From Bacillota bacterium (GTDB taxonomy: Bacteria; Bacillota; DTU030; DUMP01), in assembly GCA_030154105.1 (NCBI GenBank), contig JASKKP010000003.1:62001-126000 (forward strand): a stretch of DNA of 64,000 nt, in the 5' to 3' direction. Numbering within the stretch: the first letter of the stretch is position 1; each line of letters starts with the position of its first letter. The notes below the pieces were generated by a model, which was not told the DNA's origin, did no database searches, and worked only from the letters and a program-made list of their open reading frames with translations. Below, piece by piece: positions 3,322-59,517 of the stretch. Position numbers and translations under genes: made by a program.

Positions 3322-4041
3322 GTGAAAAAAAGGCTTTTGTTTCCCACTCTCGGGGAACAGCTTTTCGTTTGCCTTAAAGAGGCTATTCTTGCCAATCAAT
3401 ACCGCCCCGGCGAAGAACTGCCGATCGAAAAGCTGGCCGGCGAGTATGGAGTCAGCAACACACCGGTGCGCGAGGCGTTGGCCCGGTTGGCGAACGTCGG
3501 CTTGGTGAATATTATTCCGAATAAAGGGGCAGTGGTGGCACCGATCACCGAGAGGGATATCCAAGACGTCTGGGAAGTGCGTAGGCTCCTCGAACCCTAT
3601 GGGGCCGCTCTAGCCGCCGAGAGGTGCTCGGAAGAGGAATTGGACCTTCTCGTAACCGAGCTTGAAGAAGTATTGGCGCATCCGGAGGATTTTGCCGCCT
3701 ATACCCGGGTTTCTTTCGAGGTGCACGCGTTATTCTATAAGCACCTTGCCAACAGGCTTTTGCGCGAACTCTTGGAAAAAGTAAACATCCATTCAATCCG
3801 CATTCGTTCCTTTGTGGAAGGTAGCCGAAAGTCCGTGCGGGAGGAGATAGTGCGCCAGGTCGCCCGTGAGCACTTGGATATTGTCGAGGCACTGCGGCGC
3901 CGGGATGCTGAAGAGGCGAGCCGCCGGATACGAGAGCACCTGGGCGCCGGCGAACGGCGACTCCTTGGTGTGTTGCACGGCAGCGGGGATGGTACACACC
4001 AGGGGGGAGCGACCGGGGCGGCTGCAGAGGGAAACGGCTAA
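3322..4041 (+). CDS. GntR/FadR-family (FCD) transcriptional regulator
   Basis: Product of 239 residues: an N-terminal winged helix-turn-helix (about residues 10-75, with EKLAGEYGVSNTPVREALAR) and a C-terminal all-helical FCD ligand domain whose His residues in EVHALFYKHL and REHLDIVEAL fit the metal-binding positions of this subfamily. GTG start at 3322 after GGAGG. FCD regulators usually respond to organic acids; the next genes (4145 onward) encode a tricarboxylate transporter, so it probably controls that operon and itself. A close paralogue is encoded at 16651. Ligand unknown. Confidence 0.9.
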   Translation: MKKRLLFPTLGEQLFVCLKEAILANQYRPGEELPIEKLAGEYGVSNTPVREALARLANVGLVNIIPNKGAVVAPITERDIQDVWEVRRLLEPYGAALAAERCSEEELDLLVTELEEVLAHPEDFAAYTRVSFEVHALFYKHLANRLLRELLEKVNIHSIRIRSFVEGSRKSVREEIVRQVAREHLDIVEALRRRDAEEASRRIREHLGAGERRLLGVLHGSGDGTHQGGATGAAAEGNG

Positions 4042-4144: not shown

Positions 4145-5149
4145 ATGAGAAAGGCGTTGGGGTTACTTCTTGTGGTTGTACTGGGCCTGGGGGTTTTCGG
4201 TTGCAGTAAGCCAGCAGGCCAGGCAACGGAAGGGGAGAAGCCGGCGGCACCCAAGTATCCGGAAAAACCGATTACTTTCCTGGTGCCGTTTTCGGCGGGC
4301 GGCGGAAGCGACATCATGGCCCGGGCCATTGCCGGGGTGATGCAGAAAGAAGGGATCCTGCCGCAGCCGCTCGTGGTAGAGAACAAACCAGGCGGCAGTG
4401 GCTCCATCGGTTATAGCTACGTGGCCGGTAAAGTAGGCGATCCCTACATTATCAGCACGGTGAGTTCCAGCTTCTGGACAACGCCCTTGGCCGGAAATTC
4501 TCCTGTCAGCTACAAAGACTTTACGCCGGTGGCGGCGCTGGCCATGGATCCCTTCCTGCTTATGGTTAAGGAGGACTCGCCGTACAAAACCCTGGACGAC
4601 CTCATCAAAGCAGCCAAAGCAAAACCGGAGGGTTTGGCCGTCGGCGGCACGAGCGGGCTGTCCGACGACCGGGTTTGCACGGCCCTCTTGGAAAAACAGG
4701 CCGGCGTGAAATTCAATTTCGTTCCCTTTGAGGGCGGCGGCGATGCCATGACGGCCCTTTTGGGCGGGCACGTACAGCTTTGCTGGGCCAGCCCGGGCGA
4801 GGCGCTCAATCAGCTAGAGGCTAAGAAAGCAAGACCTCTTGCCGTTTCGACCGAAGAGCGGCTGGCGAAGCTGCCGGATGTTCCCACGTTTAAGGAATTG
4901 GGTTACGACCAGGTAGTTTTCTACCAATTCCGCGGCATCGTTGCCCCCAAGAACATTCCTGAAGAGGCGCTCAAAGTACTTGAAGAGGCTTTCAAGAAGC
5001 TGAGCGAGAGCCCAGCTTGGGAAAAAGAATACCTTGAGCCGAACATGGTGACGGCGCGCTACTTGCCGGCCAAAGAGTTCGGGGACGCTATCATTAAGCA
5101 AAACGAGCTTTATACCCAGATCTTTAAGGACCTTGGCCTGCTTAAATAA
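4145..5149 (+). CDS. tctC: Tripartite tricarboxylate transporter substrate-binding lipoprotein (TctC family), copy 1
   Basis: Product of 334 residues. A signal peptide ends in a lipobox VFGC with Cys20 as lipidation site, so the mature protein is anchored outside the membrane. The Bug/TctC fold is indicated by YPEKPITFLVPFSAGGGSD near the mature N-terminus and by the VPTFKELGYD segment. TctC proteins bind carboxylates and deliver them to TctAB. It is followed by tctB and tctA in the same order as the second copy at 10345-13377. Solute not predictable; carboxylates are the family norm. Confidence 0.93.
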   Translation: MRKALGLLLVVVLGLGVFGCSKPAGQATEGEKPAAPKYPEKPITFLVPFSAGGGSDIMARAIAGVMQKEGILPQPLVVENKPGGSGSIGYSYVAGKVGDPYIISTVSSSFWTTPLAGNSPVSYKDFTPVAALAMDPFLLMVKEDSPYKTLDDLIKAAKAKPEGLAVGGTSGLSDDRVCTALLEKQAGVKFNFVPFEGGGDAMTALLGGHVQLCWASPGEALNQLEAKKARPLAVSTEERLAKLPDVPTFKELGYDQVVFYQFRGIVAPKNIPEEALKVLEEAFKKLSESPAWEKEYLEPNMVTARYLPAKEFGDAIIKQNELYTQIFKDLGLLK

Positions 5150-5193: not shown

Positions 5194-5216
5194 GAGGCGG
5201 GAGGAGGGAAACGGCA

Positions 5217-5657
5217 ATGAGGCGCGCTAACCAGGCCGCAGCTCTCTGCCTACTGGCCCTAGCCGTATACATCAGTGTTACCGGCCTGGTTATGGGTTAC
5301 TATGAAAAATCTGCTCCGGGTCCAGGATTCTTGCCGTTTTGGATTGGTGTCTTCCTAGGGCTTTCTAGTCTGGGCATTCTTTGGGAAAGCCGGAGCTCCA
5401 AAGATGCGTCGCTTTTTCCGCCCGGGGCTTTTCGCACTCTGTTCGCAATCACCGGCGCAGGGGCGGCGGCCATCGGGCTGAGCTCCACCTTGGGCCTGCT
5501 GCTCGCTTTGGCGCTCCTGGCCGGATTTGCCGCCCGCTTCTTGGGTGCCTCTTGGAGCCAAACGGCCGTTACGGCAGTCGCTATTACTGTGACGTTTTAT
5601 TTTCTCTTCGTTCGTTTTCTTATGGTCAGCTTCCCCACCGGGATTCTCGGCATCTAG
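5217..5657 (+). CDS. tctB: Tripartite tricarboxylate transporter small membrane subunit (TctB family), copy 1
   Basis: Product of 146 residues with four hydrophobic segments, the size and topology of TctB. The ATG at 5217 is preceded by GGAGGGAAACGGCA; an in-frame extension to 5133 would overlap tctC and read through the hairpin, and is rejected. TctB is the small partner of the TctA channel. Sequence conservation in this family is low, so the call rests on size, topology and its place between tctC and tctA. Confidence 0.87.
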   Translation: MRRANQAAALCLLALAVYISVTGLVMGYYEKSAPGPGFLPFWIGVFLGLSSLGILWESRSSKDASLFPPGAFRTLFAITGAGAAAIGLSSTLGLLLALALLAGFAARFLGASWSQTAVTAVAITVTFYFLFVRFLMVSFPTGILGI

Positions 5658-5671
5658 GAGGGGCTACTCAC

Positions 5672-7177
5672 ATGGAAACACTTAGAATGCTCCTTTCCGG
5701 ATTTTCAGTAGCCCTGCAACCGGCAAACCTGCTCGCCTGCTTGATCGGGGTGGTTGCAGGAACGCTCGTCGGAGCTCTTCCTGGCCTGGGGCCTTCTACC
5801 GGTGTGGCTGTGCTTCTACCCCTGACGTTTGGTATGAACCCGGTTACGGCCATCGTTATGTTGGCCGGCATTTATTACGGAGCCATGTATGGCGGAGCTA
5901 TTGCTTCGATTCTCATAAACACGCCAGGCGATGCCGCCGCCGTGATGACCTGTTTAGACGGATATCCGCTGGCGCAGAAGGGCCAGGCTGGCGCGGCCCT
6001 GGGTATGGCCTCCTTCTCTTCTTTTATTGGGGGTACAATTTCGGTTGTGATCTTCACCTTCTTGGCGCCGGCCCTGGCGCAGGCCACACTTTGGTTTGGT
6101 CCGCCGGAATACTTCGCCCTTATGGTAATGGGCCTTTCTACTGTTTCGGGGCTGACGGGCAAATCACCGTTTAAAGGCATCGCTTCTATGTTAATCGGCT
6201 TGGCCCTGTCCTGTGTCGGAACCGACCTCGTTACCGGCCTGCCGCGCTTTTGCTTCGGCCGTCCGGAACTTTACAGCGGCGTGGAATTCATCACGGTGGC
6301 CTTAGGGCTTTTCGGGATTGCCGAACTCATCAGCCTGGCCGCCAGCGAAACGCCACAGCTGAGGCGAACTGAGGTAAGGCTTAACTTCCGCAATCTCCTT
6401 CCCAACAGAGAGGACTGGGCTGCCTCCTGGCCGCACATCCTGCGCGGCACGGGCATAGGCTTTTTCATCGGGATGCTGCCGGGAGCCGGCGGGACTATAG
6501 CTTCGTTTATTTCTTACTCCGCGGCGAAGCGCCTGTCCCGGCATCCGGAGAAGTTCGGCGAGGGCGCCATCGAGGGGGTTGCGGCTCCAGAATCGGCCAA
6601 CAACGCGGCTTCCGTCGGTGCCTTTGTGCCGCTTTTGGCGCTGGGAGTTCCCGGCTCGGCCACCACGGCCGTGCTCATGGGCGCGCTCATGATGTACAAC
6701 CTGCGCCCAGGGCCGCTAATCTTCGAGCGCAACCCGCAGTTTGTCTGGGGCTTGGTATCTTCGATGTATGTGGGCAACGTGATGCTGATGTTGCTGGTTT
6801 TGCTTTTTATCCCCTTGTTTGTAAGAGTGCTAGATATTCCCACACATACTCTTGTTGGTTGGGTTATCGCTTTTATCTTGGCCGGGTCGTTTGGCCTGAA
6901 CAACAGCCTCTTTGATGCCGGCATGACCGTGGCCTTCGGCTTCCTCGGCTACCTCATGAAGCGGCTTGAGTACCCGGCGGCTCCATTGGTTTTGGCCTTG
7001 GTGCTTGGAAACATGATGGAAAACTCTCTCCGGCAATCGCTACTTCTATCCCACGGGAGCCTAGCCATCTTTTTCACCCGGCCTTTATCCCTGGTGATTC
7101 TTCTTATTGCTGCGGCAGCGGTGCTGGTACCGGTAGTACGCAGCTTGACCCGAGCGAAACCAGCGCTCCAGCAGTAG
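5672..7177 (+). CDS. tctA: Tripartite tricarboxylate transporter large permease (TctA family), copy 1
   Basis: Product of 501 residues with about 12 membrane segments. The family signature GALPGLGPSTGVA lies near residue 35 and its second-half counterpart [13 protein letters not shown] near residue 270. ATG at 5672 follows AGGAGGGG; the same frame is open much further upstream in tctB, but the conserved TctA N-terminus (residues after METLRMLLSGF) fits this start. It forms the sodium- or proton-coupled transport channel. Last gene of the TctCBA set; the next gene starts 29 nt on and is probably co-transcribed. Confidence 0.95.
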   Translation: METLRMLLSGFSVALQPANLLACLIGVVAGTLVGALPGLGPSTGVAVLLPLTFGMNPVTAIVMLAGIYYGAMYGGAIASILINTPGDAAAVMTCLDGYPLAQKGQAGAALGMASFSSFIGGTISVVIFTFLAPALAQATLWFGPPEYFALMVMGLSTVSGLTGKSPFKGIASMLIGLALSCVGTDLVTGLPRFCFGRPELYSGVEFITVALGLFGIAELISLAASETPQLRRTEVRLNFRNLLPNREDWAASWPHILRGTGIGFFIGMLPGAGGTIASFISYSAAKRLSRHPEKFGEGAIEGVAAPESANNAASVGAFVPLLALGVPGSATTAVLMGALMMYNLRPGPLIFERNPQFVWGLVSSMYVGNVMLMLLVLLFIPLFVRVLDIPTHTLVGWVIAFILAGSFGLNNSLFDAGMTVAFGFLGYLMKRLEYPAAPLVLALVLGNMMENSLRQSLLLSHGSLAIFFTRPLSLVILLIAAAAVLVPVVRSLTRAKPALQQ

Positions 7178-7206: not shown

Positions 7207-7932
7207 ATGTACATCAACGAAGATCTATGTATTGCTTGCCGGAGTTGTGTGCCGTACTGCCCGGTGGGGGCCATTCGGGTAGAGGAACCCGATCGGGTCT
7301 ATATTGACCAGGAGCATTGCACCGAGTGTGGGACCTGCCTGCGCATGGCCAGGTGCCCGTCAGATGCCCTCGTGGAGCCAGCCGAAGTTTACCAGGAGCC
7401 GCGGTCGGTGCGAAAGTTCTTCTCCGACCCAATGGCGACTCATAAGGAAACGCTCCTTCCCGGCCGGGGCACGGAGGAGGTTAAGACCAACGACGTAACC
7501 GCCCGGGTAAAGCGTGGGCAGGTGGGCATTGCCATCGAGATGGGCCGACCGGTCCTGGGGACGACTATGGCGGAAGTGGAGAAGGTAATCAAACGCCTGG
7601 CCGCCTTGGGAATTCGGCTGGAAAAGAATAATCCCCTTTCCTACCTAGTCGACGACCCGGAAACGGGGACCCTTAAACCGTGGGCTAAGAAAGAAAGAGT
7701 CATCTCCTGCATCATCGAGTTTTCGGTGCCGGCGGAGAGGCTGCGAGAGCTTCTCACCGCCATCCGAGAGCTGGCGGAAGAGGTGGACACGGTATTTTCC
7801 CTCGACTTAATCACCCGTTTCGATGAGGAAGGTAACATACCCGTTATTCCCATTTTGGAAGAGATGGGCATCCATTACCGCCCTAATGCCAAGATTAACT
7901 TGGGCCTGGGGCGCCCGCTCAGGGAGGAATAA
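7207..7932 (+). CDS. Protein with N-terminal double [4Fe-4S] ferredoxin domain and uncharacterised C-terminal domain
   Basis: Product of 241 residues. Cys8, 11, 14 and 18 form a standard CX2CX2CX3CP cluster motif; Cys38, 41, 44 and 50 form a second motif with unusual CX2CX2CX5CP spacing. Residues about 90-240 are an alpha/beta domain I do not recognise; it begins VKRGQVGIAIEMGRPVLG and contains VISCIIEFSVPAERL. No signal peptide or membrane segment. It lies 29 nt after tctA and 2 nt before the next gene, so it is in the transporter operon. It could pass electrons or sense redox state, but no function is assigned. Confidence 0.75.
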   Translation: MYINEDLCIACRSCVPYCPVGAIRVEEPDRVYIDQEHCTECGTCLRMARCPSDALVEPAEVYQEPRSVRKFFSDPMATHKETLLPGRGTEEVKTNDVTARVKRGQVGIAIEMGRPVLGTTMAEVEKVIKRLAALGIRLEKNNPLSYLVDDPETGTLKPWAKKERVISCIIEFSVPAERLRELLTAIRELAEEVDTVFSLDLITRFDEEGNIPVIPILEEMGIHYRPNAKINLGLGRPLREE

Positions 7933-7934
7933 AG

Positions 7935-8576
7935 ATGACGCACTCTTTACACCGCCGCGGCAGCATCGAATCCTTAAAGAAAGACTATGTGCTGCTTTTT
8001 ACTCCTGCGGCCAACATCAACCACGAAGGATCGCATGACAAGTTGCGCGAAATTGTCGATATCATCGCCGAAGCCGGCCCGACGAATATCGGCTCATATG
8101 AAGTTCGTAACATCTACGACGGCTCGACCATCGAAGACATCCGGGCCAACTTATCCAAGGCCAAGGTACCGCGCGTGCGCTGCTGTTTTTCCGACCGCGA
8201 GAAAGTCTTACGGGTCCTCAAAAAAGTAAAAGAAAGAGACTTCGGCATTTCTGTGACCGTAAGCGGCTTGATCGATGAAGTCCTCGCCATGGCCAGAGAG
8301 ATCGGCTTAAAACCGCATTCCATCAACCTATCCTTAGGCGTTTGGGGCCGGACGGAACGCCTTCCTTCGGAAACCATTATGGAAATTGTCACCATGTGTG
8401 GTCACGGCATGCTGGCTGCATCTTTGGTAAAAGAACAGGTTGAGCTTGTACGCCGCGGGAAAAAGACGGCGCGGCAGGCAGCAGAGGAGCTGGCTCGTCC
8501 ATGCACCTGCGGAATTGTCAACGTCGACCGGGCGGAGGGAATCCTGACTCGTTACCTTAAAGAGGGGGAAAAGTAA
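7935..8576 (+). CDS. Conserved-looking cytoplasmic protein of unknown function with Cys/His motifs
   Basis: Product of 213 residues, not recognised. Possible ligand residues are His30 and His34 (NINHEGSHDK), Cys83-Cys84, a CGH motif at residues 155-157 and PCTCG at 189-193. No membrane segment or signal peptide. ATG at 7935 is 2 nt after the ferredoxin-like gene, with GGAGGAATAA upstream, so translation is probably coupled. A terminator-like hairpin follows and then the LarA-family gene. The Cys and His content suggests metal or Fe-S binding. The pairing with the preceding gene suggests a two-protein unit; this is inference. Confidence 0.7.
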   Translation: MTHSLHRRGSIESLKKDYVLLFTPAANINHEGSHDKLREIVDIIAEAGPTNIGSYEVRNIYDGSTIEDIRANLSKAKVPRVRCCFSDREKVLRVLKKVKERDFGISVTVSGLIDEVLAMAREIGLKPHSINLSLGVWGRTERLPSETIMEIVTMCGHGMLAASLVKEQVELVRRGKKTARQAAEELARPCTCGIVNVDRAEGILTRYLKEGEK

Positions 8577-8924
8577 TTTTCTGCGCCAGTTTACGGGCGG
8601 ATGTAGAAGCTCATTATCAATCGCGGGAAATTAATTTGACCCAAGGGGGCGGGACCGCGGCTGGTCCCGGCCCTGTTCTTGTTCTGCCGTGCATGGAGTT
8701 ATATCGTGCGACTAGGCAGGATTTTTTGCGTAAATGTAGAATACAATAGCTAACACAGGGGTGATTATTTGTAATTCGAAAAAGGATTAGGCTAAACAAC
8801 ACAAAATATGATGCATGACATAAGATGTTGGATATATTACACACACAATTTTACGGCGCAGGCCCTTTGGCATACGATACGGGAAACGGCTCAAGTACCT
8901 TCCAAAAGAAAGGTGGGCACTTAA
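8577..8924 (+). other. Intergenic region: terminator-like hairpin, then AT-rich leader of the LarA-family gene
   Basis: The 348-nt gap starts with a hairpin at 8645-8685. The stretch 8700-8860 is clearly AT-richer than its surroundings and is the likely promoter region for the following gene, but no -35/-10 pair is convincing; TTGTAA...TAAACA near 8770-8800 is the best weak candidate. An ATGCAT palindrome near 8810 resembles the one overlapping the promoter at 3248-3255. No small gene is evident. Confidence 0.5.
8645..8685 (+). terminator. Probable terminator after the tctCBA-ferredoxin operon
   Basis: GGGACC/GGTCCC around a GCGGCT loop, extendable outward with GGGC/GGCCC, is followed by TGTTCTTGTTCTG. 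The tail is T-rich but not a pure U-tract, so efficiency is uncertain. Confidence 0.55.
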
Positions 8925-10226
8925 GTGCGAGTTGAGCTGCTATACGGAAAAGGCGGTACGGTTCCTCTTAATGTACCCGACGCAAATCTGGCCGGGGTTT
9001 ACTCGGCCAAAGAACGGCTGCCGTTGGCCGATCCCCATGGTGCTGTCCAAGAGGCCCTTAGGAACCCGGTAGGGGCCAGGCCACTGGCGGAAATTTGCCG
9101 GGGTAAGAAAACTGCCTGTATTGCCATTACCGACGCTTCAAGACCCAATATAGAGCGGGTGGTAATGCCGGTATTATTAGAGGAGCTCCATGCGGGCGGA
9201 ATACGCCAGGAAGACGTTACCATTTTGGTGGGCGTTGGCTCGCACCCGCCGGCGACGATGGCAGAGCTGGAGGAAAAGCTGGGATCCGAGATCTTGCACA
9301 ACTATCGCGTTGAAAATCACGACTGTTATTTGAGCCCGGTGGATTATTTGGGGACCACGTCGTTGGGAGTGCCGGTAGAGATTAATACCCTCTTTGCGCG
9401 GGCAGACCTTAAGATTGCCGTAGGGACGGTGCTGCCCCACCCGTTTGCCGGTTTTAGTGGCGGACCTAAGATGATGGCGGTCGGGATTGCCAGCTACAGA
9501 ACCATAGGGGCCTCGCACTCGCCGGCGATGATAAATCACCCCCAGTGTCGCTATGGCAACACGGCCGGCAACCCATTTTACCAGTCCGCCCTCGAGGTTG
9601 CGGAAATGGTCGGCCTCGATTTCATTGTAAACGGAGTTACCCGCGAGGATGACGGGAGCCTCGTTCAGGTGGTGGCCGGAGAGGTACGGGCAGCCCACGG
9701 TCAGCTGGTCGCCGGCCTGCAAAAGGACTTCCTGGTGAACATTCCGGGGCCGGCGGATATTGTTGTGGTTGCCACCGGCTACCCAAAGGATGGCAATATA
9801 TACCATGTATGCGCGTTGGGCGTCTGCGCTGTGGCCGGAGCGGCGGTGGGAAGTTCTTGCGTTCGGCCTGGCGGAGCAATTATCGCTGTTTCACCTATGG
9901 AAGAGGGAATCTATAACGAAGTTTTCTACAACACCCTAAAGGAAGCGACCACTCCCGATGAAGTGATAGCCCGGGTAGAGAGCTTGGCCGAACGCAAGCC
10001 GGGCCACCACCGGGCGTACGGCGTGGCCCAGGTGCTGAAACAATATCGCGTAATCATGGCCCAGTCAAAGATGGATCCCGAGCAAATTAGGGCCATCCAT
10101 ATGGAGGCGGTGGCCAGCGCTCAGGAAGCGCTGGACCGGGAACTTAAACGCTACGGTCCGGCGGCGAAAGTGCTCGTCCTCAACGGCACTCACCGTATGG
10201 TAATTTCTGTTGGCCACGGATCCTAA
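8925..10226 (+). CDS. larA: LarA-family nickel-pincer nucleotide enzyme (2-hydroxyacid racemase/epimerase)
   Basis: Product of 433 residues, the LarA/DUF2088 size. The active-site pattern of lactate racemase is present: His107 in GSHPP, His172 in PHPFAGFSGGPK, Lys182 in the same motif (the residue that tethers the pincer cofactor) and His198 in GASHS. GTG start at 8925 after AAAGGTGGG. LarA relatives racemise or epimerise various 2-hydroxyacids, so lactate is only one possibility. It stands between two carboxylate transporters and upstream of hydroxyacid dehydrogenases, which fits conversion of an imported hydroxyacid to the D form. The cofactor genes larB, larC and larE are not in the window. 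Confidence 0.88.
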   Translation: MRVELLYGKGGTVPLNVPDANLAGVYSAKERLPLADPHGAVQEALRNPVGARPLAEICRGKKTACIAITDASRPNIERVVMPVLLEELHAGGIRQEDVTILVGVGSHPPATMAELEEKLGSEILHNYRVENHDCYLSPVDYLGTTSLGVPVEINTLFARADLKIAVGTVLPHPFAGFSGGPKMMAVGIASYRTIGASHSPAMINHPQCRYGNTAGNPFYQSALEVAEMVGLDFIVNGVTREDDGSLVQVVAGEVRAAHGQLVAGLQKDFLVNIPGPADIVVVATGYPKDGNIYHVCALGVCAVAGAAVGSSCVRPGGAIIAVSPMEEGIYNEVFYNTLKEATTPDEVIARVESLAERKPGHHRAYGVAQVLKQYRVIMAQSKMDPEQIRAIHMEAVASAQEALDRELKRYGPAAKVLVLNGTHRMVISVGHGS

Positions 10227-13647: not shown

Positions 13648-13950
13648 AACAAGAAATACGCAGGAGAACAGAAAAGAAAAAAGGTACTGCCTTATGGAAG
13701 TCTTTTCTTAACGCTGCTGTTGGTGCTCGGCGGCTGTAGCAGCCAGCAGCCTGCTCAGCAGCAACAAAACCAGCAGCAGGGGCAGGCCCCGGCTCCGGCT
13801 GCCCAGGGCCAACAAATGGTACTGGCTACCGGCGGTACCGCGGGTACCTACTATCCGCTGGGCGGGGCTATGGCTCAGATTTGGAACTCCAAACTAGGCT
13901 ATAATGTTACCGCTCAGGCTACAGGTGCTTCGGTAGAAAACCTCATGTGA
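13648..13950 (+). pseudogene. TAXI-type TRAP solute-binding lipoprotein, N-terminal remnant
   Basis: An open frame encodes KRKKVLPYGSLFL, a hydrophobic signal and the lipobox LGGC, then a Gln/Ala-rich linker and MVLATGGTAGTYYPLGG, the standard N-terminus of TAXI-family TRAP binding proteins, up to TGASVENL. It then stops at 13948; about 250 residues are missing. The start codon is also gone: after the ribosome site AGGAG (13662-13666) the sequence reads ACAGAAAAG where one inserted T would restore ATG AAA AGA in the correct frame. Start loss and truncation make this a pseudogene. Confidence 0.8.
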
Positions 13951-14215
13951 CTCTGAATAACGAGATCCTGCTGGATAAGGCCGTATGGGATATGAATGGA
14001 GCAGGCCTTCCGGTAGGCCAGGAGGCGGGAATGGAGTTCGAACTCAAGGACGGAAAGTACATCCTCTCACATATGGGACGGCGGTACAAGGAAGTTGCCT
14101 TGGCCGTGGGCTGGGTGGCTCAGCACAAGTTGGTTTCCGCGGTCGTATTCTCCCATTATCACGGCTTACGCCTCCCGGTCGGGCCTGCACCTTTTGGCCG
14201 GGGAACAGCCCCGCT
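13951..14215 (+). pseudogene. DUF1850-like protein, C-terminal remnant
   Basis: Directly after the truncated binding protein the reading frame encodes DMNGAGLPVGQEAG and RRYKEVALAVGWVAQHKLV, which I read as the C-terminal half of a DUF1850 protein, a small gene often found between TAXI binding protein and permease genes. Near 14130 the frame shifts and continues as FRGRILPLSRLTPPGR, the expected ending. The N-terminal half is absent, consistent with a deletion fusing it to the binding-protein remnant. The family assignment is from memory of the motif pattern and is moderately sure. Confidence 0.6.
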
Positions 14216-15497
14216 GGCTCGTTGCGTACGAAGAATTCAGGTGGCTCAGGCTTTATCAAAAAATACCGGCGTCTGACAGGGGTTTGGGCCAGCATCATCC
14301 GCTGGCTGGCCATTGGTATGTCTTTATACCAGTTATATACGGCTATCTTCGGCGTGCTTCCGGCTCAGCTACAGCGGACCTGGCATCTTGGCTTTGCCCT
14401 TTCATTGATCTTCCTTTTATCCTAGCCGCAAGCGGCGCCCGGGGGCTGCCGCTTTCTTGATGGCGGAGTTCATTGGTATACCCTACGCTAGGATAACCCT
14501 GGCGGCAGCTATCCCGGCCGTTCTCTACTTTACCGGGGTAGGCATTGGTGTGCACTTGGAAGCGAGACGGACGGGCCTTAAGGGGTTACCGCCGGATCGA
14601 GTGCCCCAGCTGGGAAGAATTCTGCGCGAACGAGGCCAGCTGCTTATTCCCGTCCTCGGCTTGATTGTAGTTATGGCTACCGGAGCTACCCCGGTCAAAG
14701 CGGCCTTGTACGCTATTGCCTTGGCCCTGGTGGTAAGTGCTTTTTCCCCTAAAACTCGCCTTAAACCGGGCGATATCCTTGACGCCCTGGAACAGGGAGC
14801 GCGGGGAGCTCTGGGGGTGGCAGCAGCTACTGCCGCAGCCGGAATGATCGTCGGGTCGGTTACGCTTACCGGCCTGGGGCTGAAGCTGGCCAATGGGCTG
14901 GTAACGCTGGCAAAAGGCAATCTTCTCCTTACCATGTTCTACACCATGATCACGTCGCTCATTCTCGGCATGGGTTCTCCGACTACGGCCAACTACGTAA
15001 TCACTTCTACCATTGCTGCACCGGCGCTCGTTCACTTAGGTGTCCCCCTCTTGGCTGCCCACCTGTTCGTGTTCTATTTTGGCATTGTAGCCGACCTGAC
15101 GCCGCCGGTGGCACTGGCAGCTTATGCGGGGGCCGGTGTTGCCAAGGGTGAACCAATGCGTACGGGCATAAACGCTACCAAGCTGGCTGTAGGCGCTTTC
15201 TTAATTCCCTACATCTTTGTCATGTCGCCCCAGCTCCTCCTAGTGAATACCACCTTCCTGGGTGCTGTTCGCGTGGCCCTAGGGGCCATCGTAGGTATGG
15301 TTTCCATAGAATCGGGTGTACAGGGATGGCTACTCGTCGAGGCAAACGTTTTGGAAAGAATCCTCCTTGCAACCGCCGGCCTTATGCTCATCCACCCGGG
15401 CCTTGTGACAGACATGATCGGTCTTAGCCTGTTCCTAGCTCTCTACCTGGGTCAAAGGCGGCGAGCGAGGAAGCAGGGAATTAGCTATTTACTGTAA
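14216..15497 (+). pseudogene. TAXI-type TRAP transporter fused permease, internally deleted and frameshifted
   Basis: The N-terminal part (KKYRRLTGVWASIIRWLAIG and LYQLYTAIFGVLPAQLQRT) is typical of fused TRAP permeases. At about 14415 the frame shifts, continuing as YPSRKRRPG in the frame used to the end. That runs straight into AAAFLMAEFIGIPYARITL, which normally lies hundreds of residues further on, so an in-frame deletion of roughly 200-300 residues is inferred near 14436-14446. The rest (to 15497) is a good C-terminal half including GMGSPTTANYVI and the usual terminal helices. A frame from 14457 could give a 346-residue protein, but it lacks half the permease. Confidence 0.8.
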
Positions 15498-49967: not shown

Positions 49968-50759
49968 ATGAAAGACGAACTGGTCGAAAAGATCGTCCAG
50001 GAAGTCCTCAAGAAGGCCGAGACCGCGGCGCCGGCGGCCCAACCGGTTGCCCCAGCCAAGGCGTCCGCGTGCAACATCACCGAGTTTGTCGGCACCGCGC
50101 TGGGCGATACCATCGGTCTCGTCATTGCCAACGTCGATCCGGCCCTCCACGAGCGCATGGGCATCGACCCAAAGTACCGTTCCATCGGCATTTTCAGCGG
50201 CCGCACGGGAGCTGGCCCGCAGATCATGGCGGCGGACGAGGCGGTAAAGGCCACCAACACCGAGATCGTCAGCATCGAACTGCCGCGTGACACCAAGGGC
50301 GGGGCCGGTCACGGCAGCCTCATCATCTTCGGCGCCGAAGAGGTGAGCGATGCTCGGCGGGCGGTGGAGGTAGCCCTCAAGGAGCTGGAGCGTACCTTCG
50401 GGGATGTTTACACCAACGACGCCGGCCATCTGGAATTCCAGTACACCGCGCGGGCCAGCTTCGCCTGCAACAAGGCCTTTGGCGCCCCCATCGGCAAAGC
50501 CTTTGGTCTGACGGTGGGAGCTCCGGCGGGCATCGGTGTGGTTATCGCCGATACGGCAGTTAAGGCGGCCAACGTGGATGTAATCGGTTATGCCAGCCCC
50601 AGCAAGGGCACCAGCCTGACCAACGAGGCCATCCTCTTCATCAGCGGCGATTCGGGCGCCGTACGCCAGGCGCTTATTGCGGCCCGCGAAGTCGGCATTA
50701 AGCTTCTCGGGGCCCTCGGTGCAACTCCGGCTTCCCTCACCGGCAAGCCTTACATCTAA
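49968..50759 (+). CDS. pduB: Tandem-domain trimeric shell protein PduB
   Basis: Product of 263 residues with two permuted BMC domains (about 40-145 and 150-255), including TIGLVIANVDPALHERMG and GAPAGIGVVIADTAVKAANVD. The N-terminus MKDELVEKIVQEVLKK is an encapsulation-peptide-like amphipathic helix, as on Salmonella PduB. ATG at 49968. Trimers of this type are gated pores, and PduB's N-terminus ties the enzyme core to the shell. Confidence 0.94.
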   Translation: MKDELVEKIVQEVLKKAETAAPAAQPVAPAKASACNITEFVGTALGDTIGLVIANVDPALHERMGIDPKYRSIGIFSGRTGAGPQIMAADEAVKATNTEIVSIELPRDTKGGAGHGSLIIFGAEEVSDARRAVEVALKELERTFGDVYTNDAGHLEFQYTARASFACNKAFGAPIGKAFGLTVGAPAGIGVVIADTAVKAANVDVIGYASPSKGTSLTNEAILFISGDSGAVRQALIAAREVGIKLLGALGATPASLTGKPYI

Positions 50760-50907
50760 GGCTCAGTCGATGCCTACACGGCCCTCAAGCGGCGTCCCAA
50801 AGCCGGGGTAAAGCGCACCTGACGCGCCTCGCCGAAAAGCCCGAGAATGGCGACTTCTAAGACGCTTCGCCGGGGCGGAAACATTACTCAACAAGGAGGG
50901 ATAATCC

Positions 50908-52575
50908 TTGAAGAGATCCAAGCGCTTTGAGGTCTTGGAGAATCGACCGGTCCACCAGGACGGCTTCGTTCACGAGTGGGCGGAAGTCGGCCTTGTGGCC
51001 ATGAACGGTCCCAACGACCCTAAGCCTAGCATCAAGATCGAAAACGGCCGCGTGGTGGAGATGGACGGGAAACCGCGCAGCGAATTCGACATGATCGACC
51101 AGTTCATCGCCGACCATGCGATCAACCTGGAGCTGGCGGAAAAGGTGGCCGCCATGGATTCCCGGGAACTGGCCAAGATGATCGTCGACGTCAACGTGCC
51201 GCGCTCCGAAATTGTCAAACTCACCACCGCCATGACGCCGGCCAAGATCTGCGAAGTCGTGGGGCACATGAACGTGGTGGAAATGATGATGGCCCTGCAG
51301 AAGATGCGGGCGCGTAAAACCCCCGATATTCAGTGCCACGTAACCAGCCTCACCGACAACCCCGTTCAGATTGCCGCCGATGCGGCCGAGGCAGCCCTGC
51401 GCGGCTTCAACGAGATGGAAACTACCGTTGGTATCGTGCGTTACGCGCCCTTTAACGCCATGGCCCTCCTCATCGGTTCACAAACCGGCCGCGGCGGCGT
51501 TCTCACCCAGTGCGCCCTGGAGGAGGCTACCGAGCTCCAGCTCGGCATGAAGGGCTTTACGGCTTACGCCGAGACCATCTCCGTGTACGGTACCGAGAAC
51601 GTCTTTGTCGACGGTGACGATACGCCCTGGTCCAAGGCCTTCCTAGCTTCTGCCTATGCTTCCCGTGGCCTGAAGATGCGTTTCACCTCCGGGACGGGCT
51701 CCGAGGTACAGATGGGTTATGCCGAAGGCAAGTCCATGCTTTACCTCGAGGCGCGCTGCGTCTACATCACCAAGGGCGCGGGGGTGCAAGGGCTGCAGAA
51801 CGGCTCGATCAGCTGCATCGGTGTGCCGGGTGCGGTGCCGGGCGGCATCCGCGCTGTTCTGGCGGAGAACCTCATCACCACCATGTTGGACCTCGAGGTA
51901 GCTTCCGGTAACGATCAGACCTTCAGCCACTCCGACATCCGGCGCACGGCCAGGACGATGATGCAGTTCCTGCCGGGAACCGACTTTATCTTCTCCGGCT
52001 ACAGCGCCGTTCCCAACTATGACAACATGTTCGCCGGCTCCAATTTCGACGCCGAAGACTACGACGATTACCTGGTGCTGCAGCGCGACCTGATGGTGGA
52101 CGGTGGCCTGCGGCCTGTTTCCGAGGAAGAGGTTATTGCTATTCGTAACAAAGCTGCGCGGGCCCTGCAGGCGGTCTTCAAGGAACTCGGCCTGCCGCCC
52201 ATCACCGACGAAGAGGTTGAAGCGGCTACCTATGCCCACGGCAGCAAAGATATGCCGCCGCGCAACGTGGTAGAAGACCTGAAGGCGGCCGAAGAGCTCT
52301 TCAAGGGACCGGCTACAGGTCTAGACATCGTCAAAGCCCTAGCCAAGAACGGCTTCGAGGATGTGGCCAACAACGTGCTCGGGATGCTCAAGCAGCGCGT
52401 GTCCGGCGACTACCTGCATACCTCCTCGATCATCGACAAGAACTTCGTGGTAAAAAGCGCCGTCAACGACCCCAACGACTACGCTGGCCCCGGCACAGGT
52501 TACAGGATCTCCCCCGAGCGTTGGGAAGAGATCAAGAACATTCCGTGGGCCATGCGGCCGGACCAGATCGGCTAG
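50908..52575 (+). CDS. pduC: Propanediol/glycerol dehydratase large subunit
   Basis: Product of 555 residues, the full size of the B12-dependent diol dehydratase alpha subunit. KRSKRFEVLENRPVHQDGFV begins the protein, and GSQTGRGGVLTQCALEEATEL and SGTGSEVQMGYAEGKSMLYL are barrel segments that line the adenosylcobalamin active site. TTG start at 50908 with AAGGAGGGATAATCC upstream. Converts 1,2-propanediol to propionaldehyde or glycerol to 3-hydroxypropionaldehyde. A 148-nt gap of unknown content separates it from pduB. Confidence 0.97.
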   Translation: MKRSKRFEVLENRPVHQDGFVHEWAEVGLVAMNGPNDPKPSIKIENGRVVEMDGKPRSEFDMIDQFIADHAINLELAEKVAAMDSRELAKMIVDVNVPRSEIVKLTTAMTPAKICEVVGHMNVVEMMMALQKMRARKTPDIQCHVTSLTDNPVQIAADAAEAALRGFNEMETTVGIVRYAPFNAMALLIGSQTGRGGVLTQCALEEATELQLGMKGFTAYAETISVYGTENVFVDGDDTPWSKAFLASAYASRGLKMRFTSGTGSEVQMGYAEGKSMLYLEARCVYITKGAGVQGLQNGSISCIGVPGAVPGGIRAVLAENLITTMLDLEVASGNDQTFSHSDIRRTARTMMQFLPGTDFIFSGYSAVPNYDNMFAGSNFDAEDYDDYLVLQRDLMVDGGLRPVSEEEVIAIRNKAARALQAVFKELGLPPITDEEVEAATYAHGSKDMPPRNVVEDLKAAEELFKGPATGLDIVKALAKNGFEDVANNVLGMLKQRVSGDYLHTSSIIDKNFVVKSAVNDPNDYAGPGTGYRISPERWEEIKNIPWAMRPDQIG

Positions 52576-52604
52576 AAAACGGCTAGAGAAAGGGGTGGAA
52601 AGGT

Positions 52605-53264
52605 ATGCAGATTAGTGAACAGCTCGTTCGCCAAGTGGTGCAAGAAGTTCTGGCCAGCATGGGACAGGCAGAGCCGGCGAAGGCTTCGGCGCCCGAAGCG
52701 CCTGCTCAGCCGGTGAGCGGGCTCACCCTGACGGAGCTGGGCCCGGCGCAGCCCGGGACGAAGGCCGACGAAGTGGTCATCGGGTTGGCACCGGCCTTCG
52801 GGCTATACCAGACGAAGACGATTCTCGGGATTCCCCACGCCGTTGTCCTGCGCGAGATGATTGCCGGCATCGAGGAGGAGGGGCTCAGGGCGCGGGTAAT
52901 CCGGGTGCGGCATACCTCGGACGTGGCCTTTGTGGCCCATACGGCGGCCAAACTTTCCGGGTCCGGGATCGGCATCGGCATCCAGTCCCGGGGTACAACT
53001 GTCATCCACCAGAAAGACCTGGATCCGCTCTCCAACCTGGAGCTTTTCCCGCAGTGCCCGTTACTTAAGCCTGAGACCTACCGGGCCATCGGGCGCAACG
53101 CAGCCCGCTACGCCAAGGGCGGCTCCCCGAACCCGGTGCCCACCGAGAACGACCAGATGGCCCGCCCCAAATATCAGGCGGTAGCGGCGGTGCTCCATAT
53201 CAAAGAAACCGAGCACGTGGACCGCAACGCGAAACCGGTTGAACTTGCCGTCAGCTTTAAATAG
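52605..53264 (+). CDS. pduD: Propanediol dehydratase medium subunit
   Basis: Product of 219 residues. The N-terminal helix [20 protein letters not shown] is an encapsulation peptide, followed by a Pro/Ala linker and the catalytic-partner domain with [20 protein letters not shown] and [12 protein letters not shown], which contacts cobalamin. ATG at 52605 after AAAGGGGTGG. The signal peptide directs the holoenzyme to the compartment lumen. Confidence 0.96.
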
Positions 53265-53281
53265 GGGAGGTGACGCAGGTG

Positions 53282-53800
53282 ATGCAGGAGAACCTAATCG
53301 AGGAGATCGTTCGGGAAGTGCTTAAATCCTTACAGAACAACCAGGCGTCGGCTCCGGCCTGCAAAGCCCAGAGTGAGAGCAAGACCAGTCTGGACCCCGC
53401 CCGCGACTACCCGCTGGCCACGAAACGGCCGGAGCTCGTGAAAACGCCCACGGGCAAATCGCTCTCCGACATTACGCTTGAAGCGGTGCTGAAGGGCGAG
53501 ATCACGCCTCAGGATGTCCGCATTACACCCGAGACGCTGGAAATGCAGGCGGAAATTGCCGAGAAGGTCGGCCGGCATCAGTTCGCCCGGAACCTCAGGC
53601 GGGCTGCGGAACTTACGCACATTCCCGACCAGCGCATCCTCGAAATCTACCGGGCTCTGCGGCCGTACCGCTCCACCAAGGAAGAGCTCCTGGCCATTGC
53701 CGATGAGCTGGAACAAAAATATGGGGCACGCATGAATGCCACCCTGGTGCGGGAAGCGGCAGAGGTGTACGAACGGCGCGGCAGGCTGCGCAGCGCTTAA
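53282..53800 (+). CDS. pduE: Propanediol dehydratase small subunit
   Basis: Product of 172 residues from the ATG at 53282 (GTGs at 53270 and 53279 are alternatives; GGGGAGG lies at 53264-53270). An encapsulation-like helix MQENLIEEIVREVLKSLQNN opens the protein, followed by a linker and the helical small-subunit domain with YPLATKRPELVKTPTGK and LRRAAELTHIPDQRILEIYRALRP. Completes the pduCDE dehydratase. Confidence 0.95.
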   Translation: MQENLIEEIVREVLKSLQNNQASAPACKAQSESKTSLDPARDYPLATKRPELVKTPTGKSLSDITLEAVLKGEITPQDVRITPETLEMQAEIAEKVGRHQFARNLRRAAELTHIPDQRILEIYRALRPYRSTKEELLAIADELEQKYGARMNATLVREAAEVYERRGRLRSA

Positions 53801-53845
53801 GAATACGCGAAACACCTGACGGTAGGCCGGGTGTTGGAGGTGGAA

Positions 53846-55669
53846 ATGTTGCAACGCATCGCCGGAGTGGATGTGGGAAATGCTACTACTGAGGTTGCTC
53901 TTGCCGAGCTCGGCCCCGAGGGTCTCAAGTTTTTAGCCAGCAGCCTGGTTCCCACAACCGGAATCAAGGGGACGCGCCAGAACCTGCACGGGATCTTTAG
54001 CGCCCTGCGCCAGGCGCTGGATAAAGCCGGGCTGGGGCTCAAAGACCTCGACCTCATACGCATTAACGAGGCGGCTCCAGTTATTGGGGATGTGGCCATG
54101 GAGACCATCACGGAGACGGTTATTACCGAATCCACGATGATCGGCCACAATCCGACCACTCCGGGCGGGTTGGGCCTGGGCACGGGCTTCACCACGCCGA
54201 TCGCCGACCTTTCGCGGCAGGCGCCCGGCACCAAAGTGCTGGTGATCGTTCCGGGTAACTGGGATTTCGCAGTGGCGGCCGAGGAGATCAACCGTGCCCT
54301 GGCCCGGGGCGTAGATGTTCAAGGCGTGATCGCCCAACGCGACGATGGTGTGCTGATCGCCAATCGGTTGTCCAAACCGCTTCCCGTCGTGGATGAAGTG
54401 CGGCTCATCGACAAGGTGCCCGTAGGGATGCTGGCAGCTATCGAAGTGGCTCCGCCCGGTGCGGCGATTACGACGCTCTCCAATCCCTACGGCATTGCTA
54501 CCGTGTTTGGGCTTTCCCCTGAGGAGACCAAGGCCGTCGTGCCCATGGCCCGGGCCCTCATCGGAAACCGTTCGGCGGTGGTCATCAAGACTCCGGCGGG
54601 AGATGTGCGGGAACGGCGCATTGCCGCCGGGAAGCTGACCCTCATCGGCGAGCGCCATTCCCGCACCGTCGACGTGGAGGAAGGCGCGGAGGCGATTATG
54701 GAGGCCCTGGCCCAGGTGGCGCCGCTCAAAGACGTTCGCGGGGAGCCGGGGACGAATGCGGGCGGCATGCTGGAGCGCGTACGCCAGGTTATGGCCGAAC
54801 TTACGGGCAAACCGGCGGCAGAAGTAACCATCCAGGACCTCCTGGCGGTAGATACCTTCATACCCCAAAAAGTCCGGGGCGGAATCGCCGAGGAGTTTTC
54901 CCTGGAAAACGCCGTCGGCCTGGCGGCCATGGTGAAGGCGGACCGCCTGCAGATGGAAAAGATCGCCCAAGCGCTCACGGAAGAAACGGGCATCAAAGTG
55001 GAAGTAGGTGGGGTGGAGGCCAACATGGCCATCCGGGGAGCGCTCACCACGCCGGGCACGAGCCCCCCGTTGGCCATTCTGGATCTAGGGGCAGGCTCCA
55101 CCGATGCCGCCCTAATTACCAAGAGCGGCGAGGTACGCTCGGTCCACCTGGCGGGAGCCGGCAACATGGTCACACTTCTCATCGGTGCCGAACTCGGGCT
55201 GGACGACTTCGGCCTGGCCGAAGACATCAAGCGCTATCCGCTGGCCAAGGTGGAGAGCCTGTACCACATCCGGCATGAGGACGGGAGCGTCCAGTTCTTC
55301 AACGAGCCCCTTCCGGCGGAGGTGTTCGCCCGGGTGGTCCTCATCAAAGACGGCGCCTTGGTGCCGCTCCCGGGTGAACACAGCTTGGAAAAGGTGCGGA
55401 GCGTGCGGCGCGAGGCCAAACGCCGCGTTTTTGTCGAAAACAGCGTCCGTGCCCTCAAACAGGTGATCCCCACCGGAAACATCCGCGACATCGAGTTCGT
55501 TGCCCTGGTGGGAGGGTCATCTTTGGACTGGGAGGTGGCCGGCTTCATCACCGACCGCTTGGCCGAGTACGGGGTGGTAGCCGGTCAGGCCAACGTGCGC
55601 GGCACGGAAGGACCGCGCAATGCCGTGGCCACAGGATTGGTCCTGGCATACCAGGAGAGTAGGGAGTGA
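53846..55669 (+). CDS. pduG: Diol dehydratase reactivase large subunit
   Basis: Product of 607 residues. It begins RIAGVDVGNATTEVALAEL, an actin-fold nucleotide motif, with LDLGAGSTDAALI near residue 415 and VALVGGSSLDWEVAGFI near the C-terminus. ATG at 53846 with GGAGGTGG is preferred to GTG at 53831. Exchanges damaged cobalamin out of the dehydratase in an ATP-dependent reaction. It overlaps pduH by 4 nt. Confidence 0.96.
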   Translation: MLQRIAGVDVGNATTEVALAELGPEGLKFLASSLVPTTGIKGTRQNLHGIFSALRQALDKAGLGLKDLDLIRINEAAPVIGDVAMETITETVITESTMIGHNPTTPGGLGLGTGFTTPIADLSRQAPGTKVLVIVPGNWDFAVAAEEINRALARGVDVQGVIAQRDDGVLIANRLSKPLPVVDEVRLIDKVPVGMLAAIEVAPPGAAITTLSNPYGIATVFGLSPEETKAVVPMARALIGNRSAVVIKTPAGDVRERRIAAGKLTLIGERHSRTVDVEEGAEAIMEALAQVAPLKDVRGEPGTNAGGMLERVRQVMAELTGKPAAEVTIQDLLAVDTFIPQKVRGGIAEEFSLENAVGLAAMVKADRLQMEKIAQALTEETGIKVEVGGVEANMAIRGALTTPGTSPPLAILDLGAGSTDAALITKSGEVRSVHLAGAGNMVTLLIGAELGLDDFGLAEDIKRYPLAKVESLYHIRHEDGSVQFFNEPLPAEVFARVVLIKDGALVPLPGEHSLEKVRSVRREAKRRVFVENSVRALKQVIPTGNIRDIEFVALVGGSSLDWEVAGFITDRLAEYGVVAGQANVRGTEGPRNAVATGLVLAYQESRE

Positions 55670-56196
55670 AGAGAGTGGGCCTGGAGGAGCGGGCGCAGAG
55701 GGAAAAGCCTCACGTAAAGGTATATCGAACTTCGGATGCGCCGGCGGAGGTTTGCCGGGAGGTAGAATACGGCCTCGAGGAAGAGGGTATTCCCGGCATG
55801 CTGAGCACCGTTGAAGCCCTAAAAAGCGCGGTGGAGCTGGCCTTCGCCGCCGCCCAGGCTTCACCTCTGGGAACGGGCATAGGTATTGCCGCCGACGGCC
55901 TGGCCGTGCACTATAGCCGTCTACCGCAGGATAAACCATTATTTTACGCGGCAAAAGCCGACTGCCATCCGGCCGAGGCCCGGCGCCTGGGCGCCAACGC
56001 GGCCCGGTTGGTCAAGGGCATTCCCTTCAAGGAAAAGGAGGATACGCCGCTCCCCGTCGGTTCCCGCGGGCCGGCGCCGACGGCTGAAGAGGACCTAAAG
56101 GAGCTGGTTGCGGCGGTGGTCAAAAGGGTGCTGGCGGAGATGGGCCAGGCCAGAGGAGGTGGAGACGGTGGAGCAAGAAGCGCTGGGGCTCATTGA
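55666..56196 (+). CDS. pduH: Diol dehydratase reactivase small subunit with C-terminal encapsulation-like helix
   Basis: Product of 176 residues. The first 115 or so are PduH-like (VKVYRTSDAPAEVCREVEYG, GIPGMLSTV, ARRLGANAARLVKG). After a Pro-rich linker the C-terminus adds EDLKELVAAVVKRVLAEMGQ, a helix that looks like the encapsulation peptides at the N-termini of PduD and PduE. GTG start at 55666 overlapping pduG. The last 29 nt overlap the next gene. The C-terminal extension is the unusual part. Confidence 0.9.
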   Translation: MKRVGLEERAQREKPHVKVYRTSDAPAEVCREVEYGLEEEGIPGMLSTVEALKSAVELAFAAAQASPLGTGIGIAADGLAVHYSRLPQDKPLFYAAKADCHPAEARRLGANAARLVKGIPFKEKEDTPLPVGSRGPAPTAEEDLKELVAAVVKRVLAEMGQARGGGDGGARSAGAH

Positions 56197-56857
56197 GACG
56201 GTGGGGCTGGCTGCAGCGGTGGAGGGCGCCGATGCCGCCCTCAAGGCGGCCAGCGTCCGGCTGCTCGGTTATGAGCTTACCCGCGGCGGCGGGATGGTGA
56301 CGGTGAAAATTATAGGCGACGTCTCGGCGGTGCAGGCGGCCGTTACGGCCGGAGCCATGGCGGCTAGCCGGGTGGGTAAAGTAGTCAGCAAACACGTCAT
56401 ACCGCGCCCACACGAGGAGCTGGCGAAACTGATCCATTCACCGGAGACGGTGGGGGAAGGGAAGCCGGCCCGCAAGGTGGCGGCGGAAGAAAAGGCTAAG
56501 CAAGAAGAGGCAAAGCCCGCCGAAGAGGCCCGAGAATCCGGGGCTCAGGCGGGGCCGGCAGGGACGGTAGCCGGGCCGGAAGCTCCGGGAGCGGAGGGTA
56601 CTGCGGCCGCCGAAGCCGAGACCGAACCTGTAGCCGGGCCAGAAGCAACGCCTGCCGGGCCCGGCGAGGTGCCGAAACCGGTAGAAATCGACCGGCCGGC
56701 TTCCGCACGCCTGGAGGAATACCCGGAACCTGTGTTACCGGCCGCCGCCAGCGGCGAGAAACCTCCTGTGTCCGAAGTATGTAACCTGTGCGGTGACCCC
56801 GCTTGCCCCCGCCGCAAGGGCGAACCCCGTTCTCGGTGCATCCATTACGCGGAGTAA
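56168..56857 (+). CDS. pduK: Shell protein PduK: BMC domain with Cys-rich C-terminal tail
   Basis: Product of 229 residues. BMC domain at about 1-90 (ALGLIETVGLAAAVEGADAAL, KHVIPRPHEEL), then about 110 residues of Ala/Pro/Glu-rich low-complexity linker, and a C-terminal motif CNLCGDPACPRRKG plus a later RCIHY. The four Cys and one His fit an Fe-S or zinc site. GTG at 56168 with GAGGAGGTGG upstream; it overlaps pduH. Minor shell component. Confidence 0.88.
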   Translation: MEQEALGLIETVGLAAAVEGADAALKAASVRLLGYELTRGGGMVTVKIIGDVSAVQAAVTAGAMAASRVGKVVSKHVIPRPHEELAKLIHSPETVGEGKPARKVAAEEKAKQEEAKPAEEARESGAQAGPAGTVAGPEAPGAEGTAAAEAETEPVAGPEATPAGPGEVPKPVEIDRPASARLEEYPEPVLPAAASGEKPPVSEVCNLCGDPACPRRKGEPRSRCIHYAE

Positions 56858-56869
56858 GGAGGGCTTGAT

Positions 56870-57142
56870 ATGGGCGAAGCGCTGGGCCTAATCGAAACCC
56901 AAGGGCTCGTGGGAGCCATCGAAGCTGCCGATGCCATGGTCAAGGCGGCCAACGTAACGCTGGTCGGCTACGAAAAAATCGGCAGCGGGCTGGTTACGGT
57001 GATGGTGCGCGGAGATGTGGGCGCGGTGAAGGCGGCAACCGACGCCGGAGCGGCGGCGGCCAGCCGCGTGGGCAAAGTCGTATCCGTCCACGTCATTCCA
57101 CGCCCGCATTCGGATACCGAAAAAATTCTGCCTCACGCCTAA
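56870..57142 (+). CDS. pduA: Microcompartment hexameric shell protein PduA/PduJ type, copy 2
   Basis: Product of 90 residues, almost identical to the copy at 49644 ([53 protein letters not shown]). ATG at 56870 after AAGGAGGGCTTGAT. As pduA and pduJ are near-duplicates, which copy is which cannot be fixed from sequence alone; the labels are conventional. Confidence 0.94.
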
Positions 57143-57199
57143 GAGGCAGGCGGGATTCCTTTTCCCGATCTTCAGCGAAGTGAAAGAGGAAGTGACCCG

Positions 57200-58700: not shown

Positions 58701-58706
58701 TGAAGG

Positions 58707-59465: not shown

Positions 59466-59517
59466 TTTCCAGCTCCGGGCGCCGTGTCTCACCTCTGAAG
59501 GTTAGAGGGGTGGAATA

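Follow-up and report, generated by a model that had tools for sequence, protein, structure and literature searches.

What do two adjacent genes without a family name contribute to an operon for the uptake of organic acids? The question is raised by a run of genes near the left end of the window, i.e., the whole 64,000 nt stretch of Bacillota DNA that was analysed (contig JASKKP010000003.1), in which a GntR regulator, tctC, tctB and tctA are followed by genes A and B, with A-B at the end of the run. The preliminary description placed the pair between tctA and larA, and suggested a redox or metal-handling role in hydroxyacid metabolism. The features of the locus are as follows:

3322..4041, + strand: GntR/FCD regulator, with which the presumed operon begins (PF07729 and PF00392)
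4145..5149, + strand: tctC, substrate receptor of a tripartite tricarboxylate transporter, upstream of A-B (PF03401, 165.8 bits)
5205..5657, + strand: tctB, start codon uncertain (PF07331, 58.8 bits)
5660..7177, + strand: tctA (PF01970, 551.2 bits)
7207..7932, + strand: gene A, 241 aa, a 2[4Fe-4S] ferredoxin domain followed in the same chain by a C-terminal domain of no known family
7207..7401, + strand: gene A residues 1-65, 2[4Fe-4S] ferredoxin domain (Pfam Fer4; fold match Z 7.8 to Clostridium acidurici ferredoxin, 1fca)
7462..7506, + strand: gene A residues 86-100, signature loop GRGTEExKTNDVTxR, partly of low confidence in the AlphaFold2 model
7513..7818, + strand: gene A residues 103-204, predicted ferredoxin-like domain of ACT/PII-type topology (AlphaFold2)
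7935..8576, + strand: gene B, 213 aa, nameless family
7935..7961, + strand: gene B residues 1-9, N-terminal motif MTHSLHRRG (M-[TS]-H-[ST]-L-H-R-x-G), found at the starts of homologous ORFs
7971..8270, + strand: gene B residues 13-112, predicted ferredoxin-like beta-alpha-beta domain (AlphaFold2; weak match to SbtB)
8394..8405, + strand: gene B residues 154-157, MCGH motif with C155, G156 and H157 invariant
8502..8513, + strand: gene B residues 190-193, CxCG motif with C190, C192 and G193 invariant
8925..10226, + strand: larA homologue, a neighbour (PF09861, 186.7 bits)

Gene A starts 29 nt after tctA, and only 2 nt separate it from gene B. The ORF coordinates and the tight coupling of the two genes were confirmed, and the coupling reaches far beyond this genome. 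The position between tctA and larA is true locally, but the larA homologue starts 349 nt downstream of gene B and is no general partner of A-B; it is probably a neighbour of the cassette and not part of it. No Rfam match was found in the whole window or in the 8560-8940 gap, and promoter and terminator scans returned about as many matches as chance gives. The GntR/FCD regulator is kept in a relative (L026). Further along the window (13678-15497), a TAXI-TRAP transporter operon survives only as remnants; the same relative has this operon intact. About 90 of the 338 residues of the receptor are left, and the membrane subunit lacks residues 77-298. A third region (49968-62172) carries, judged from translations only, a look-alike of a pdu-type propanediol/glycerol utilisation set (shell protein, dehydratase, reactivase and aldehyde dehydrogenase).

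The cysteines of gene A are spaced C8-x2-C11-x2-C14-x3-C18 and C38-x2-C41-x2-C44-x5-C50, and the domain scores 44.8 bits against the Pfam Fer4 profile (cut-off 21.1). The dual [4Fe-4S] pattern described earlier, with CX2CX2CX5C as its second spacing, is sound, and all eight cysteines are invariant in 58 homologues. In the same set, conservation continues beyond the ferredoxin domain, at G86-R-G-T-x-E91-x-K93 (where G86, R87, G88, T89, E91 and K93 are invariant), G113-R-P, P143, S167 and K229-x-N-x-G-x-G-x-P. The best Pfam match of the C-terminal domain among the four sequences scanned has an E-value of 0.017, below the curated cut-off, and a sequence search of solved structures with gene A gave ferredoxin-type matches only.

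Among 86 homologues of gene B, for which an M[TS]H start was an inclusion criterion, the invariant positions are M1, H3, R7, G104, G111, G138, C155-G-H157, C190-x-C-G193 and N196, while H6 and H128 are nearly invariant. Two of the four motifs first pointed out in this protein, CGH and CxCG, are thus invariant, but the H-x3-H (H30/H34) and CC (C83/C84) motifs are not conserved. The N-terminal motif, M-[T/S]-H-[S/T]-L-H-R, was overlooked at that stage. The start region is visible in 122 of 125 B ORFs, and reads M[TS]H in 121 and MTN in one (L110). In the 115 ORFs that were counted, again with an M[TS]H start as criterion, R7 is present in all 115, and H6 and L5 in 114 each. The stop codon of gene A is close by, leaving little room for an N-terminal extension of gene B, and as the motif lies at the extreme start of the protein, the residue set free by loss of the methionine could be functional.

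Four loci carry second B copies that stop at about residue 139, before the MCGH motif and the Cys region (L059:15070-15489, L060:11420-11839, L061:11432-11854 and L065:7965-8381). Selenocysteine and frameshifts were considered and rejected, as reading past the stop and in other frames revealed no C-terminal domain, and the copies look like real truncations. Their lack of the Cys region indicates that it is not always needed. When the 86 homologues were compared one by one with Pfam and NCBIfam, no family matched more than two of them (best E 1e-4), and a PDB search by sequence with gene B gave nothing credible. The earlier impression that neither protein matches a known family was thus correct for gene B, which is without a Pfam or NCBIfam family, and for the C-terminal domain of gene A, which is without a Pfam family. 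A likeness of MCGH to the active-site motif of proline racemases found no support in any scan and was dropped.

Single-chain AlphaFold2 models of both proteins are good, with a mean pLDDT of 88.7 for gene B and 89.6 for gene A. In these models, residues 103-204 of gene A and 13-112 of gene B are ferredoxin-like beta-alpha-beta domains, and their fold matches include PII-like proteins and ACT domains. The matches are weak: for gene A, e.g., CPII (5d4n) with Z 6.3 and an rmsd of 2.4 over 72 residues, and for gene B, at best, SbtB (6wue) with Z 5.7 and an rmsd of 6.3 over 87 residues. Scores of this size to PII/ACT-type folds may reflect just a common arrangement. Foldseek gave no match below E 0.001 for either model, the best (2.4e-3) coming from the ferredoxin part of gene A. 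Homology between A and B was also considered, and none was detectable (hhalign probability 3.4).

A search of 41 genomes, comprising that of the window and 40 relatives, found gene B in five, and a complete genome of the same genus has nine B matches. In a sample of the phylum, 20 of 299 genomes gave a match, two of these very short. A scan of 84,980 species genomes (one genome per species), baited with the N-terminal and CxCG motifs of gene B, of which one sufficed per locus, found relatives encoded at 309 places or more. Of these places, the best 80 were analysed, as 78 loci, so that the motif conservation and neighbourhood counts lean to closer, motif-carrying relatives. By NCBI ranks, which are rough since some records are titled 'Deltaproteobacteria bacterium', these best-scoring loci belong to Bacillota (33), Thermodesulfobacteriota (18), Myxococcota (10), Chloroflexota (8), Pseudomonadota (5), Synergistota (1) and Chlorobiota (1), with two unranked, and most come from metagenome bins. 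Among the cultured bacteria, Desulfosporosinus lacus has the pair in its genome. The viral contigs and plasmids searched contained no relative of B.

The two genes are rarely apart. In 120 of 125 B ORFs (from 95 stretches, of which 76 are named loci, 18 come from relatives and one is the first 20 kb of the window), gene A lies directly upstream on the same strand, and in 109 of these the gap is between -4 and +22 nt. Of the five exceptions, L052 and L071 are at contig edges, L040 has a frameshift in A, L046 has the two genes in the order B-A, and L023 is a fragment. Within 11 whole genomes, A lies within 300 bp of 37 of the 39 B matches, the others being an A split into two matches and a fragment; conversely, B is beside 37 of 40 A matches, the rest being a split A and two partial matches (one at a contig end). 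A 490-residue ORF in L040 that looked like a natural A-B fusion was discarded as an artefact, the A part ending in a shifted frame and B having its own start. The evolutionary distances of A and B are correlated (r 0.78, 113 pairs; none of 1000 permutations as high), and among the nine paralogous pairs of one genome the correlation is 0.96. TctA distances fail to track the pair, with values over 54 pairs of 0.82 for A-B, 0.35 for A-TctA and 0.36 for B-TctA. Since the distances of A and B agree while those of TctA diverge, the two proteins are very probably specific partners that act as a pair and have been combined with different transporters.

Decayed copies of A or B occur beside intact ones or alone (L010:5494-6088, L023:6762-7127), and point to a cassette that is both amplified and lost. 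In some stretches, the same TctCBA genes or partners are accompanied by two or three pairs (L043, L044, L045, L049, L060, L061, L089 and L108), which may represent two successive steps or hetero-oligomers.

If larA is no general partner, which genes accompany the pair? The 11 whole genomes, all picked for carrying B, contain 53 TctA genes, of which 20 have B at a distance of no more than 3 kb, against 0.42 expected from the length covered, while the corresponding values for full-length LarA are 2 of 33 and 0.31. For aldehyde oxidoreductase-type (AOR) genes, the counts are 3 of 62 within 3 kb (0.51 expected) and 5 of 62 within 6 kb (0.89 expected). Only three of the 39 B genes have a full-length LarA within 6 kb, and in the closest relative, whose A-B is 94% identical, larA is a 136-residue remnant. 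The co-occurrence anticipated for the locus is thus strong for TctA but weak for LarA.

Around 118 B genes, the families found within 5 kb on the same strand were TctA (59), TctC (56), CooF-like (27), FNOR (27), CO dehydrogenase (CODH)-like (22), AOR (15), DUF1932 dehydrogenase (15), DapA family (13), HIBDH (12), Ldh2 (10), TRAP (10) and LarA (6). The family names rest on one representative per cluster, and the cluster labels TRAP, DctP, TAXI, D2HDH, FAH, KorAB, MoaD and AOR are a reading of sequence, supplemented for AOR by PF02730 positions. At least one carboxylate transporter, hydroxyacid or sugar-acid enzyme, or AOR/CooF/FNOR/KorAB gene lies within this distance and on the same strand for 104 of the 118; the other 14, some of them on short contigs, have no partner of the listed kinds. 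In sum, A-B is an obligate pair of co-evolving genes with a ferredoxin domain in A, can be present in several copies per genome, and lies in the organic-acid operons of bacteria that are for the most part anaerobes.

Partner types cluster on the A-B tree, with 26 changes against 58.1 for shuffled labels, and 6 against 24.5 for the CODH-like type; the tree was made by a quick method and has some long branches, and near-copies add to the clustering. Such clustering is as expected if A-B versions have become specialised. The window's own operon has neither a CooF nor an FNOR homologue. One A-B subtype has a divergent ThiF-MobB fusion gene beside it (L017:3875-5383; homologues in L013, L020 and L022), which suggests a link to the Mo/W pterin cofactor of AOR.

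The CODH-like partners bear on function. A profile of 18 of these proteins matches solved CO dehydrogenases over the full length (E 6e-86), and an alignment with two true CODHs from related genomes (L117, L118) served to check the metal ligands of the partners. All 18 keep the four B-cluster cysteines. Ligands of the Ni-containing C-cluster, whose numbering we take from the C. hydrogenoformans enzyme, with C295 least sure on account of gapped columns, are lost in a graded manner in CooF/FNOR operons (e.g., L085:434-1894): all six are present in two partners (L098, L110), four in three (L058, L068 from Halanaerobium, L069), one in four (L073, L079, L102, L077) and none in nine, so that 13 of the 18 have at most one. 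The series looks like a stepwise loss of the active site among CO dehydrogenase relatives that share one operon context. Should the subunit next to A-B be able to do without its Ni site but not without the one cluster, the simplest reading of this subunit would be an electron conduit. The genome of the window also has a true CODH (G000:C18:40275-42142, before the window), which reads in two pieces (model positions 1-37 and 37-621), apparently through a frameshift or assembly error.

That the Ni site is mostly lost while the B cluster is kept beside A-B is a main reason to prefer a redox function, and we tentatively read A-B as an obligate two-subunit Fe-S redox module of anaerobic organic-acid catabolism, a reading held with less than even confidence. 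The imported carboxylate, or its first product, would be bound by the conserved Arg, Lys, Glu and Asn residues of the C-terminal domain of A and by B. In B, a reactive metal or Fe-S site could be formed by C155, H157, C190, C192 and perhaps the N-terminal Thr-His-x-x-His as putative ligands. The two [4Fe-4S] clusters of A would carry electrons, exchanging them with ferredoxin or handing them to a dedicated partner, either CooF/FNOR (NAD) or CooF/AOR. In lineages with CooF/FNOR, the CO dehydrogenase relative, its Ni site mostly lost, would be only a conduit between A-B and CooF. The part played by the module could be substrate oxidation itself or electron relay alone, and its substrate class (hydroxy or sugar acids, tricarboxylates) is suggested by the neighbours only. 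The redox role in hydroxyacid metabolism proposed at the outset is in keeping with the eight invariant cysteines of A, the CooF/FNOR/AOR partners and the hydroxyacid and sugar-acid enzymes nearby, but LarA does not stand as a meaningful partner. Several points count against the redox module: neither A nor B has a recognisable flavin, NAD or nucleotide domain, the fold matches are weak, the short B copies do without the Cys region, 14 of the 118 B genes have none of the listed partners, the CooF/FNOR set is missing beside A-B in the window, and both new domains are predicted to be ferredoxin-like in topology, which is common among regulators.

The last point leads to a different reading, in which A and B would be two PII/ACT-like proteins that sense redox state and ligands, using the Fe-S clusters as sensor, and gate the transporter or nearby enzymes. 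SbtB, CPII and ACT domains among the fold matches of both new domains, and the strong adjacency to TctA, would suit such a role, yet the fold scores (Z 5.7 for B, 6.3 for A) are within the range of common arrangements, A and B evolve with each other and not with TctA (r 0.82 versus 0.35), and many pairs are beside AOR, CODH-like or dehydrogenase genes and not beside a tripartite tricarboxylate transporter. We regard a regulator as unlikely. Chemistry without redox is another doubtful candidate. Aconitase-type dehydratases hold a [4Fe-4S] cluster with an open site by three cysteines, and A-B might act on hydroxy or sugar acids as an Fe-S hydro-lyase or isomerase without redox chemistry, with C155, C190 and C192 of B holding the cluster and A binding the carboxylate. 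B does have three invariant cysteines and an invariant histidine, A has invariant Arg, Lys, Glu and Asn, and several neighbours act before or after dehydrations (IlvD/EDD, DapA family, Ldh2, HIBDH). A hydro-lyase, however, has no need for the invariant 2[4Fe-4S] ferredoxin of A or for CooF/FNOR and AOR partners; the short B copies lack the cysteines, and neither protein has a profile match to Fe-S hydroxyacid dehydratases of the aconitase, IlvD/EDD or serine dehydratase types.

Least to be expected is that A-B has no substrate of its own and serves neighbouring metalloenzymes (AOR, CODH-like, dehydrogenases) as electron donor or maturation factor. The ferredoxin domain of A, and the pairs that sit beside AOR together with MoaD-like, ThiF-MobB and CooF genes, argue for it; against it, most pairs are beside transporters, no metalloenzyme is common to all, and nine B matches in one genome are seemingly more than an accessory role needs. 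The preferred redox module also has a more far-reaching form, which we consider highly improbable: A-B would be the catalytic unit of a new class of Fe-S enzymes for organic acids, plugged into a CODH-derived electron transfer system in which, in several lineages, the CODH subunit of a CooF/FNOR complex lost its Ni site and kept one cluster as a wire, and the free N-terminus of B (Thr-His-x-x-His once the methionine is gone) would supply part of the ligands of the catalytic metal.

Neither new domain is assigned to a family, and the cassette matches no system that we found; its chemistry may prove to be of a known type. A search of the literature, with preprints and most subscription papers outside its scope, returned no description that we recognised as the A-B pair. 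Encoded at 309 places or more, with as many as nine B copies per genome, and nameless in Pfam and NCBIfam, the pair appears to mark a missing step in the use of organic acids by anaerobes, and offers a testable gene pair for many tctCBA operons.

Several known systems resemble parts of the cassette. Residues 1-65 of gene A are like the 2[4Fe-4S] bacterial ferredoxins of the Clostridium acidurici type in cluster motifs and fold, but gene A adds about 175 residues, comprising the signature loop and a ferredoxin-like domain absent from Pfam. The PII-like proteins SbtB and CPII, and ACT domains, may share the beta-alpha-beta topology that is predicted for A 103-204 and B 13-112, but the fold scores are weak, no sequence match exists and A and B have extra Cys/His motifs. 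The larA homologue downstream of the pair in this window is reminiscent of lactate racemase operons, but larA is rarely near other A-B pairs. The nearest described kinds to the CODH-like partners are the clade G and mini-CooS Ni-CODHs, treated in two surveys by Inoue and others (PMC6344411, PMC8776680). Short or low-scoring proteins were excluded from both surveys, and proteins with changed B-cluster or C-terminal C-cluster cysteines also from the second (PMC8776680); these filters would exclude most CODH homologues of A-B operons. Known CODH/CooF/FNOR sets contain the same genes as these loci, i.e., CooF, a CODH homologue and FNOR, but here the set is linked to A-B and most of the CODH homologues are without the ligands of the Ni site.
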